This document shows positions 1 to 2,211 of a stretch of 6,454 nt of DNA, piece by piece. This DNA comes from Pontiellaceae bacterium (GTDB lineage Bacteria; Verrucomicrobiota; Kiritimatiellia; Kiritimatiellales; Pontiellaceae), in assembly GCA_016937035.1 (NCBI GenBank), contig JAFGWS010000151.1, forward strand, positions 1 through 6,454. The letters are read 5' to 3'. The translations under genes were made by a program, and so were the position numbers. How positions within the stretch are numbered: position 1 is the stretch's first letter; each line of letters opens with the position of its first letter. The notes beneath the pieces were generated by a model that was not told the DNA's origin, did no database searches, and saw only the letters and a list, made by a program, of their open reading frames with translations.

Positions 1-557
1 AGGTTGGCAAAGGCACCGGCCTTGGACTCGCTGCCGTATATGGTGCCGTTAAAGCCCATTTGGGAGCCATTCATGTGTACAGCGCACCAACCGAAGGAAC
101 CATCTTCCGCATTTATCTGCCGGTGGATCAGTCGTTGACGCCGGCGCATGCCCTTTCCGCTAATGAAATCATTCAGGGCAAAGGAACCGTGCTGCTGGCC
201 GATGACGAGCAGGTACTACGCAAGATGGGCATGAGCCTGCTGCACAATCTGGGATACACAGTGATCCTAGCTGAAGATGGACAGGAAGCACTCGATATCT
301 ATCGGGAGCGCAATAACGAAATTGATCTGGTGATTATGGATATGGTCATGCCGAAAATGCCGGGACGAGAATCCTTTATTCAAATGCAGGAGATCAACCC
401 GGAAGTGCGAGTCCTCTTCTCCTCCGGCTTCACCCGCGAACAATCGATTGAAGATCTGATGAAACGAGGCGCCCGCGGATTTATCCAAAAACCCTACCGC
501 CGAGCCGAGTTTTCACAGAAAATCTCAAGTGCCTTACAGTCGGAATCGCCCCCGTAA
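1..557 (+). CDS. Hybrid sensor histidine kinase, C-terminal part (5' truncated by window edge)
   Basis: The frame is open from base 3 and gives 184 residues before TAA, so the true start lies outside the window. Seen: residues 2-10 read GKGTGLGLA, the G2 box of the GHKL ATPase domain of histidine kinases, followed by the usual final strands ending at FRIYLP. After a linker of about 20 residues comes a full receiver (REC) domain. It has the acidic pair in LLADDE, the phospho-acceptor Asp in DLVIMDMVMP (codon 339-341), the switch Ser in VLFSSGF and the conserved Lys in FIQKPY. From family knowledge, the kinase autophosphorylates on a His (outside the window) and passes the phosphate to this Asp. 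There is no output domain after the receiver, so phosphate probably moves to a separate Hpt protein or regulator, or the receiver is autoregulatory. The sensed signal cannot be told. No T-rich terminator follows on this strand. Confidence 0.93.
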   Translation, partial: VGKGTGLGLAAVYGAVKAHLGAIHVYSAPTEGTIFRIYLPVDQSLTPAHALSANEIIQGKGTVLLADDEQVLRKMGMSLLHNLGYTVILAEDGQEALDIYRERNNEIDLVIMDMVMPKMPGRESFIQMQEINPEVRVLFSSGFTREQSIEDLMKRGARGFIQKPYRRAEFSQKISSALQSESPP

Positions 558-650: not shown

Positions 651-653
651 GTC
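651..653. repeat. Core triplet GTC at the right end of the insertion sequence
   Basis: In transposase orientation this reads GAC and follows ATGGGT. The same GAC occurs at the other proposed end. IS110-family recombination exchanges at a short core shared by donor and target, so removing one copy would restore the empty site. A triplet match alone is weak; it is supported only by its position and the guide-like matches in the element. Confidence 0.4.
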
Positions 654-1093
654 ACCCATTAGAGGTTCCGGTCAAACACAAAATACCCTTCCATAGCCGT
701 TTCTCAACGGCCTGCTTATTTTCCTTTTCCGTGGATCGGTTCTACGTTGCTTTCCATCGCTGAACGTTTGCTGCCTTCCGGGTCTTCGTCACGTGGTTGT
801 TCAGTCACCCATCTGGATCTCGGATGTTGGCGACGGAGGCAACCACCTCCGCGTTGTGCCACATCCCCATTCCGCCCCTGCGGAACCAGAAAACCTTTTG
901 TACCCGCCCACCGCCTATTCAGTCACAATGGTTTCCCTTTGATCCCGCATCTGCTGGATTTTCCGGGTTTCCAGACCCTTTGAGGCTGGCAACGGGGCAA
1001 CCCCGCTTCAATCGATAGAATAAGGACGCCGCCGGTTTCCAATCAGTCCGATGGTTTCACCAGACCCCTTTCTGGGTTCCAGCGGCATCCCGT
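654..1093 (-). ncRNA. Candidate guide RNA (seekRNA/bridge RNA) region downstream of the transposase
   Basis: About 440 bp without a credible ORF, rich in hairpins: GCCGTT/AACGGC (696-711, 4-base loop), CGGAGG/CCTCCG (834-851), TTCCGC/GCGGAA (870-885, 4-base loop), CGGGG/CCCCG (993-1005, 3-base loop) and CCAGA/TCTGG (1060-1075, loop AAGGGG in RNA sense). In RNA sense, ATGGGTGACTGA (801-812) equals the predicted circle junction of the element. AAAGGGGTC (1063-1071) is the reverse complement of the right target flank. GGACTGAT (1042-1049) equals sequence across the left boundary. IS1111-group elements are known to encode their targeting RNA in this position. The RNA ends and promoter cannot be read by eye; only part of the interval is likely to be the mature RNA. 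Confidence 0.55.
656..668 (+). repeat. Subterminal inverted repeat, right end
   Basis: CCATTAGAGGTTC here pairs with CCATAAAGAGGTTC on the opposite strand at 2189-2202. Twelve bases are identical, broken by one T versus AA difference. The shared core AGAGGTTC is an exact 8-mer. Its place outside the non-coding region downstream of the transposase fits an IS1111-type end. Confidence 0.5.
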
Positions 1094-2125
1094 TTATCCA
1101 AACATTAGTTTTTCATCAAAATCGGCTCCGTTCATCACATGCCACATGGCCTTGGCCAGCTTGCAGGCCAGCGCTTTTTTTGCCTTTGGAACACCACTCT
1201 TTGCTTTCTTTCGTTCATACCAGTCATGGATACGCGGGTTGAAGCGTGCCGCATAGGTGGCTGCCTCAATAAAGGCCCATGCCAAATATTTATTTCCGTT
1301 CTTTGCGTTATTGCGGCCTTTTGACTTTCCGTTAGAGCTTCGTTCGCTTTTAACCGCGCGGCAATACGAAGCATAGTCACCCGCACTCGCAAAGCGTTTG
1401 AAGTCGCCACTCTCAAGCACAATAAGCATGCCGAGTGAGACCCCAATCCCCGGCACCAGTTGCGCTCGCTGGTACTGTTCTGTTGGCTTGGTAAATGCGA
1501 GTCCCTGGTTTTCGATCTTTTTCGCCAGCCGATCTGATTCATGAATGGCGTCAAGCAGCGTTTCAAGTTGTAGCTGGACGAATTCATCAAGCCCGGTGGC
1601 CTGAATATCTTTCGATGTCCACAGCTCCATTTTACGCGCGCCCGGCGCATCCAGACCATAGCGTTCAAGCAGGCCGCCAAAACTCAGAAGTACCTGCGTA
1701 CGGCGCTGAACAAATAACTGCCTTCTGCGTAAGGCATCACGGACCGGGCGAGTCTGTTTCGGGTAGATATAGCTTTCCGGGAAAATACCCAGTCGCAGTT
1801 GCTCGGCCAGCCAAGCGGCATCCGTCAGGTCATTCGTTTTCTTGATCCCTTCATACTGTTCCATTTTCGCCGGATTCCCCAGCTTCACATTGCGTCCCTG
1901 TTCTCGCAATCCATCAACCAGCCAGTACCAGTTAAAAGTCGATTCGACTCCAAAAGCCACGATGCGTTTCCAGAATGGCTCCAGTGCAGCGTTCACCGCA
2001 TCAAGGGTCGGCTTTACTCTTCTTCGGAAAACGTTATTCCCCTCTGAGTCACAGAGTGAAAGAAAAACATTGTTTCCATGCAGGTCGGCACCTGCGTATA
2101 ATGCGTTTGCTTTGGTCGTTTGCAT
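1094..2125 (-). CDS. IS110-family (DEDD) transposase, probably IS1111 group
   Basis: The protein has 343 residues, full length for the family. Seen: an N-terminal RuvC-like DEDD domain with D14 (AGADLHG), E61 (FGVESTFNWYW), and D99 and D102 (NDLTDAAWLAE). A middle helical region (about 125-215) follows. The C-terminal Transposase_20 domain begins with the helix-hairpin-helix motif LVPGIG (223-228) and continues through SERSSNGKSKG (260-270), the likely catalytic serine region, and NKYLAWAFIEAA. From family knowledge these enzymes excise the element as a circle and insert it into specific sites using an element-encoded guide RNA. The start is supported by AAAAGGAG (2131-2138) five bases upstream of ATG; a hairpin covers most of that ribosome site. 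No frameshift or missing catalytic residue is seen, so the enzyme looks active. A weak promoter candidate is TTGAAA (2182-2187) about 19 bases from GAATAT. Confidence 0.95.
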   Translation of the reverse strand: MQTTKANALYAGADLHGNNVFLSLCDSEGNNVFRRRVKPTLDAVNAALEPFWKRIVAFGVESTFNWYWLVDGLREQGRNVKLGNPAKMEQYEGIKKTNDLTDAAWLAEQLRLGIFPESYIYPKQTRPVRDALRRRQLFVQRRTQVLLSFGGLLERYGLDAPGARKMELWTSKDIQATGLDEFVQLQLETLLDAIHESDRLAKKIENQGLAFTKPTEQYQRAQLVPGIGVSLGMLIVLESGDFKRFASAGDYASYCRAVKSERSSNGKSKGRNNAKNGNKYLAWAFIEAATYAARFNPRIHDWYERKKAKSGVPKAKKALACKLAKAMWHVMNGADFDEKLMFG

Positions 2126-2130
2126 GACTG

Positions 2131-2156
2131 CTCCTTTTGTTAGTAGTTAACAAAGG
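2131..2156 (-). promoter_or_regulatory. Leader hairpin covering the transposase Shine-Dalgarno sequence
   Basis: In mRNA sense, CCTTTGTTA pairs with TAACAAAAGG across a 5-base loop, with one bulged base. The 3' arm contains AAAAGG of the ribosome site AAAAGGAG, and the ATG lies outside, so folding should hide the site. The pairing is read directly; the translational effect is inference. Hairpins that limit transposase synthesis are known in several other IS families. Confidence 0.6.
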
Positions 2157-2188
2157 ATATTCTGCGCTCGACCAAGGCATATTTCAAA

Positions 2189-2202
2189 GAACCTCTTTAT
2201 GG
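2189..2202 (-). repeat. Subterminal inverted repeat, left end
   Basis: On the minus strand this reads CCATAAAGAGGTTC, partner of the repeat at 656-668. It lies about 64 bp upstream of the transposase start. It is separated by TGATAA from the GAC triplet at the proposed end, which is the subterminal arrangement expected of IS1111-type elements. Confidence 0.5.
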
Positions 2203-2208
2203 TTATCA

Positions 2209-2211
2209 GTC
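2209..2211. repeat. Core triplet GTC at the left end of the insertion sequence
   Basis: On the minus strand this is GAC in ACGGGACTGATAACC, matching the GAC at 651-653. The split point within the triplet is ambiguous, since any cut within the shared bases gives the same product. Confidence 0.4.

Follow-up and report, generated by a model that had tools for sequence, protein, structure and literature searches.

A Pontiellaceae insertion sequence of the IS110 superfamily with a predicted guide RNA matching its own right end and its insertion site

The window—a stretch of 6,454 nucleotides from a Pontiellaceae bacterium (contig JAFGWS010000151.1, assembly GCA_016937035.1)—holds on its minus strand an insertion sequence with a transposase gene and, downstream of the gene, a long non-coding region (Table 1). 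Writing the limits of the element one core later is equally valid. The protein features the two domains of the IS110 superfamily, DEDD_Tnp_IS110 (E 6e-11) and Transposase_20 (E 6e-14), and scores above the cut-off of NCBIfam NF033542, "IS110 family RNA-guided transposase". Residues D14, E61, D99, and D102 are invariant in 31 aligned rows and, as judged by this alignment, would form the DEDD catalytic tetrad. The catalytic SG of IS621 and ISCro4 is mostly SN in the window's clade, with S264 nearly invariant and N265 invariant in the 31 rows; the profile match is weak and the mapping uncertain by one residue. Down to the right end, the non-coding region bears no long frame in the sense of the gene, and its length of 440 nt is in line with the long downstream non-coding region of the IS1111 family. 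The window has no match to any RNA family of Rfam. Membership in the IS110 superfamily, with a non-coding region downstream of the transposase gene, is supported.

Table 1. Features of the insertion sequence, in window positions, with the evidence for each
Feature	Positions	Strand	Evidence
Insertion sequence, 1554 bp including a single TG core	655..2208	minus	sister-copy limits and uninterrupted target repeats
Left joint: core TG (2208-2207), then donor A (2206); target from 2209 up, ACGGGAC on the minus strand	2206..2208	minus	sister copies and empty sites
Left subterminal inverted repeat AGAGGTTC	2189..2196	minus	sequence comparison
Transposase/recombinase gene, 343 aa	1094..2125	minus	Pfam domains DEDD_Tnp_IS110 and Transposase_20; NCBIfam name
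Non-coding region, proposed source of a guide RNA	654..1093	minus	440 nt after the transposase stop codon
Predicted target module: 13-bp stem (1091-1079 with 1035-1023) around two target guides	1023..1091	minus	fold and compensatory changes in 57 rows
Predicted right target guide AAAGGGGT, complementary to ACCCCTTT on the right side of the core	1064..1071	minus	sequence match and covariation
Predicted left target guide TCGGAC + core TG + AT (AT = left end of the element)	1042..1051	minus	covariation; 4 of 6 flank positions match in the window
Predicted left donor guide ATGGGTG + one base (A) following the first target base right of the core	805..812	minus	covariation with right ends
CTGA, start of a recurring CTG motif 3' of the donor guide, not donor sequence	801..804	minus	family comparison; CTG also in the search anchor (at most 1 substitution)
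Right subterminal inverted repeat GAACCTCT	661..668	minus	sequence comparison
Right joint: core TG (654-653), then target A (652); target CCCCTTTT from 651 down	652..654	minus	sister copies and empty sites

Relatives were gathered iteratively from genome-contig loci and fetched genomes, with transposases 38–100% identical and from several phyla. Among 103 loci examined for a right end, 78 were kept with the motif, 23 lacked it, and 2 were weak. Ten of the 78 were dropped before counting because the supposed right end was a donor guide, the left end was absent, the end was tandem, or the locus was a duplicate, which leaves 68 rows; the right-target guide is usable in 57 of these and the left-target guide in 52. 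The rows share descent, so that shuffles overstate significance, for which cluster representatives at 70% and 60% identity are a partial remedy; clustering at 50% transposase identity leaves two clusters and hence no covariation test at that level. The closest locus in the genome contigs searched is that of Pontiellaceae bacterium B1224 (90% identical), and a protein named for Pontiella desulfatans is 94% identical over 76% of the length. Within the class, the protein search gave matches of any kind in 72 of 345 genomes, and the non-coding end was matched at the DNA level in 40 of 345, at most two candidates being scored per genome. Copies of the element were detected by DNA search in 9 of 14 chosen genomes. 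The viral contigs searched held nothing close, and the phage search returned four records, none above 60%.

Partial copies accompany the complete ones. Related genomes contain scattered right-end fragments that differ in length and lack both transposase and guide region (L154, L156, L157, L163, L180, L185, L189, L228, and others), some of them at contig ends. Locus L158 contains at 301-397 a mini-element, in which a left end of about 31 nt is joined to a right end of 71 nt without gene or guides; it is a candidate non-autonomous form. In L145, the copy's right end is immediately succeeded by another short one (1835-1870), like stacked insertions, and the right flanks of L141, L147, and L163 are repeated shortly downstream, for example TGACCCCTGCGC twice in L163.

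Sister copies share their left-end sequence from CTGATAAYCATAA inward and diverge just outside it; at the right end, they agree up to ATGGGTGAC. The copies are constant from the core TG(A) inward, and the bases before the left TGA vary as G[A/C/G]C. Sister copies of one genome are inserted in a repeat starting ATGACGAWTTAGGCGG, which occurs 37 times in five of the six genomes searched; the 27 distinct sites listed comprise 19 with [A/C]CTGA followed by the target, 3 with CCCGAC, 3 others, and 2 with an IS. As read from these repeats, the uninterrupted site is GGCGG[C/A]C-TG-A-CCC, with CC-TGA-TAATC as the left and ATGGG-TGA-CCC as the right product of insertion. In the genomes of L039, L005, and L022 (two genomes), all 45 matches to a pattern allowing 0–6 free bases between AAGTAAAC and CCCCGGA read AAGTAAAC-TGN-CCCCGGA, N being T in 44 and A in one; the ends of L039 read AAAC-TG-ATAATCC (left) and GGG-TG-TCCCC (right). 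Two empty sites GTTCATC-TGA-CCCCATTT are found in the genome of L045. Since uninterrupted target repeats already hold TG, the shared core is TG and not GAC; strands would be exchanged at TG, and the circle of the window's element should read ATGGG-TG-ATAACC (ATGGGTGATAACC). The preliminary description had set the limits of the IS at 651-653 and 2209-2211 and had named sister copies with other ends as evidence against them; sister copies and empty sites place the ends a few bases away, with TG within TGA as the shared bases. At the TG joint, a promoter-like TTGACN-16..18-GATAAT is formed, with 37 of 54 rows scoring at least 10 of 12, which agrees with the promoter at joined ends reported for IS1111 seekRNA elements (excerpts of PMC11187229). 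A pattern search of 15 genomes for tandem right-left joints as natural proxies of the circle found none. The targets are dispersed REP-like repeats, TTAGGCGGCCTGACCCCTTTT and AAGTAAACTGTCCCCGGA (L274-L303, L304-L323). A Y1_Tnp (IS200-like) gene adjoins one right-end copy (L173:813-1385, minus), which is what one would expect were the target repeats REPs of transposases of that kind. No Pfam match was obtained for a 68-aa piece in L250.

The upstream part of the non-coding region folds into the predicted target module. The outer nine pairs of its stem are formed in 42–49 of 57 rows and by several pair types (3 of 60 rows being left out). The predicted fold pairs the target guides partly with each other and is taken as a fold of the free RNA only. 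From 5' to 3', the right-target guide (top-strand complement) precedes the left-target guide (bottom-strand guide); both, at 1071-1064 and 1051-1042, had been overlooked in the preliminary description. In the window, the right-target guide matches ACCCCTTT in full. Over 57 rows, 6.54 of its 8 bases match the right flank, against a shuffle mean of 5.00 and a largest value of 5.53 in 5000 shuffles. The left-target guide matches 4.19 of 6 positions of the left flank over 52 rows, against 2.32 in shuffles (largest 2.92 of 20000); the search pattern demanded [T/C]GA[A/T], so that the A after the core and the limit to A/T are partly imposed. Both signals persist in cluster representatives at 70% and 60%. 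A longest-common-substring test for the right-target guide within the first 200 nt gave a weak contrast (6.63 versus 5.65) because short chance matches are common, and the positional test was used instead. Striking agreement of guide and flank is seen in L065 (AGTTGAGT for ACTCAACT), L070, L031, L080, and L050. Among the misfits, the left-target guides of L143 and L147 are unlike the left flank of L143, and L141 has lost part of its donor guide and matches 5 of 8 with its right-target guide. An earlier candidate for the left-target guide, the 6-nt match ACGGGA at the very start of the non-coding region, was dropped, and the guide order bottom then top was withdrawn, as the family alignment places the left-target guide after the right-target guide.

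The four matches out of six of the window's left-target guide and the many right-end fragments in related genomes could also be taken to mean that the element has decayed, its guide features being remnants without present function in this copy. Such decay is unlikely, as the transposase frame is open with both Pfam domains and both joints, the donor guide, and the right-target guide are intact.

Further downstream, an 8-nt segment repeats the final seven bases of the right end and adds one more. It was located, by flanking anchors alone, in 66 of 68 rows; five of these 66 anchors are misplaced, and the correct place in those rows again reads ATGGGTGA. Over the seven donor bases, guide and right end differ by 30 mismatches compared with 43.5 in shuffles (66 rows, the five misplaced anchors among them). 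With these five left out, cluster representatives give 10 mismatches versus 20.2 at 70% (39 rows) and 5 versus 9.7 at 60% (20 rows), each with P of about 1e-4 or less. The right-end variants GGGTG, GAGTG, GGATG, and GGCTG are accompanied by a matching guide across the 68 elements, and guide and end have changed together in several different rows: GGCTG in L006 and L009; GAGTG in L052, L057, L160, and L187; GGATG in L159; and GGGC in L065. The covariation of guide and right end that the preliminary description had proposed to look for in related copies is hence present. Misfits at one or more bases are found in L002, L003, L010, and L078 and at the GGGCG ends of L037, L042, L051, L054, and L055, and several of them would be G-U wobbles; guide and right end are also apart in L031 (GAGTG against GAGCG) and L148 (GAGTG versus GGATG).

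Positions 812-805 are, on the strength of this covariation, very probably the left donor guide of a predicted guide RNA. It is quite improbable that they are instead a conserved structural element or protein-binding site that was copied from the right end and guides nothing: the identity of ATGGGTGA at both places in most rows would suit such a site and says nothing on pairing, but in the GGCTG, GAGTG, and GGATG rows listed above, which are unrelated, both places change together. The next base switches as well, to C (L012, L018), G (L052, L057), or T (seven rows of the T group).

The donor guide is part of a longer match noticed before. The 12-mer ATGGGTGACTGA occurs exactly once in the window (812-801, minus), downstream of the transposase gene and in the same sense, and nothing else matches it with up to two mismatches. 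Its 12-nt identity to the junction ATGGGTGACTGATAACC, which the preliminary description had built by joining the ends through GAC, is confirmed as a string match; a simple calculation gives about 8e-4 chance occurrences of an exact 12-mer over the two strands of the window, so the match is not trivial. The longest non-coding stretch that spans the TG joint is the 8 nt of ATGGGTGA at 812-805, for which chance alone would give about 0.007 copies in 440 nt. From the donor-guide segment as first proposed, 812-805 is retained for its covariation with the right end, and 804-801 is assigned to the recurring motif. It is very improbable that the ends share GAC, that the circle is ATGGGTGACTGATAACC, and that all 12 bases act as a single donor guide spanning the joint: despite the exact match in the window copy, sister left ends have GCC or GGC where GAC is required, empty sites already contain TG and leave the predicted junction four bases (ACTG) too long, insertion of ACTG brings none of 54 rows to 10 of 12 for the promoter compared with the 37 of the TG joint, and CTG stays constant after the guide—partly imposed by the anchor, which contains CTG with at most one substitution—whereas the base preceding TG at the left end changes with the target.

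A right-donor guide was sought near the donor guide, where complementarity to the left end is hardly above that to shuffled ends (4.59 versus 4.29, 49 rows) and has no fixed place; a short or distant one may be present. The candidate in the hairpin loop TGGTTG has no support. A third conserved block at 933-908 (minus), ACCATTGTGACTGAATAGGCGG, also contains GTGACTGA and recurs in other genomes as a match of its own; it could be the place of the missing right-donor part.

Both left guides are extended beyond the core. The donor-guide base that follows it disagrees with the first target base in 5 of 66 rows, compared with 24.0 in shuffles (five anchors misplaced); cluster representatives, with the misplaced rows left out, give 3 mismatches versus 14.0 (70%, 39 rows) and 2 versus 8.3 (60%, 20 rows), again with P of about 1e-4 or less. 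Of the 15 rows with a first target base other than A, 12 have a guide that agrees with the target and 3 (L003, L022, L039) one that keeps the donor's own A. The donor guides of L045 and L048 have T at an A site, and the right-target guide there also calls for T. The T group is largely one lineage, which leaves few independent switches, perhaps three to five. The left-target guide agrees with the element's own left end at its second post-core base, as T/T in 45 rows and A/A in 6; the two are apart in one row (L029, where the automatic pick was wrong). A looser pattern gives G and T after the core in L012 and L018 and G and A in L049, and G/G at the second base was read by eye from the printed sequence in L052 and L057. 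Each left guide would accordingly end by matching what strand exchange would present or, read the other way, the two joints of the integrated element; a role of these bases in excision is an equally fair reading. In IS621, handshake guides pair with the top strand of the partner after exchange (excerpts of PMC11208158) and extend the right (top-strand) guides, whereas the bases described here extend the left (bottom-strand) guides and would pair with the bottom strand; in either system, their place is 3' of whichever guide is on the 3' side. They might be handshake guides in mirror image of IS621—with the two post-core bases of the left-target guide following the left end of the element itself (A, then T/A/G), and the post-core base of the left-donor guide following the first target base (A/T/C/G)—a reading that we hold to be possible rather than probable. 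Handshake bases on bottom-strand guides were not met in the accessible literature, which comprised neither preprints nor most subscription papers; their absence there is weak evidence of novelty.

The element shares features with described RNA-guided systems, compared here from excerpts of the respective papers. In common with the IS1111 seekRNA systems (ISEc11, ISPa11, ISKpn4, ISPst6; PMC11187229), it has a non-coding region after the transposase gene that contains the target guides, the top-strand complement lying 5' of the bottom-strand match—here as judged by sequence and covariation—and, like ISPa11, it has a REP-type target. Published IS1111 terminal extensions measure 7 (or 6) bp on the left and 3 bp on the right (PMC11187229), and the repeats of the window's clade are more distant from the joint: in 37 of 54 rows, the inverted repeat begins 11 nt past the core T at the left end and 7 nt ahead of the core end at the right end (12 and 8 in the window). 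The repeats match exactly over 8 bp in the window and over 5–12 bp across 54 rows, most often 8 (15 rows); an automatic 11-mer search for them gave mostly chance matches and was used as a pointer only. IS1111 repeats are usually 11–13 bp (Siddiquee et al.) or 7–17 bp (Durrant et al.), and the 8 bp of the window fit the wider definition only. The IS1111 transposase motif GL-P----S(T)G is found in none of the 68 rows, and the window reads CRAVKSERSSNGK there. A donor guide is evident in the window's clade and is not described in the excerpts of PMC11187229. The excerpts of PMC11208160 report donor-binding bases that Durrant et al. predicted in a multiloop of the right-end RNA of six IS1111 elements; these are likened here by description only, and the window's clade is not named in those excerpts.

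With the IS621 bridge RNA (PMC11208160, PMC11208158), the predicted RNA has in common target and donor guides, a two-base core shared by donor and target, a REP target, covariation as evidence, and handshake-like positions. The RNA of IS621 is encoded upstream of the recombinase gene with the bottom-strand guide first, whereas here it lies downstream and the guide order is reversed. Among the parts of an IS621-type bridge RNA, the left and right target guides and the left donor guide are found, and a right donor guide is not, there being no enrichment near the donor guide. A relative with a 38% identical transposase is annotated as ISGsu4 family in two plasmid records, a likeness to ISGsu4-like IS110 elements by name only. 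The IS1111-type layout of the preliminary description holds for gene order and guide order, but not for the short inverted repeats, their distances from the ends, or the transposase motif, which are unlike the published definition of IS1111. The element is therefore described as part of a separate clade with IS1111 layout, not as a member of the IS1111 family in the sense of Siddiquee et al.

Taken together, ends, empty sites, covariation of guides with DNA, and covariation of the stem are read from the aligned sequences, and the non-coding end very probably specifies a guide RNA pairing with both the element's own right end and its insertion site. That such an RNA is made, binds the recombinase, and acts as a guide is inferred from published relatives. 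With high confidence, we regard the element as an RNA-guided member of the IS110 superfamily with a two-module guide RNA and exchange at the shared TG. In the proposed mechanism, the downstream non-coding region would give one RNA with two modules. The target module (1091-1023) would form a stem with an internal loop, in which the right-target guide would pair with the top strand to the right of the core, and the left-target guide, 3' in the same loop, with the bottom strand to the left of it. The recombinase would use this RNA to unite the circle joint ATGGG-TG-ATAACC and the REP-like repeat GG[A/C]C-TG-ACCCC, and strands would be exchanged at the shared TG.

For a broad and apparently little-described clade of RNA-guided recombinases, this analysis provides base-level predictions of ends, core dinucleotide, and target and donor guides. 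Donor guides of IS1111-layout elements have so far, according to the excerpts of PMC11208160, been predicted by inspection of few elements, whereas here guide and end change together in many relatives. The bottom-strand handshake-like positions offer a direct test of which strand is exchanged first: a mirrored handshake, if true, predicts that bottom strands are exchanged first in IS1111-layout elements, with a polarity opposite to that of IS621. The compact 343-aa enzyme could become a further programmable recombinase.
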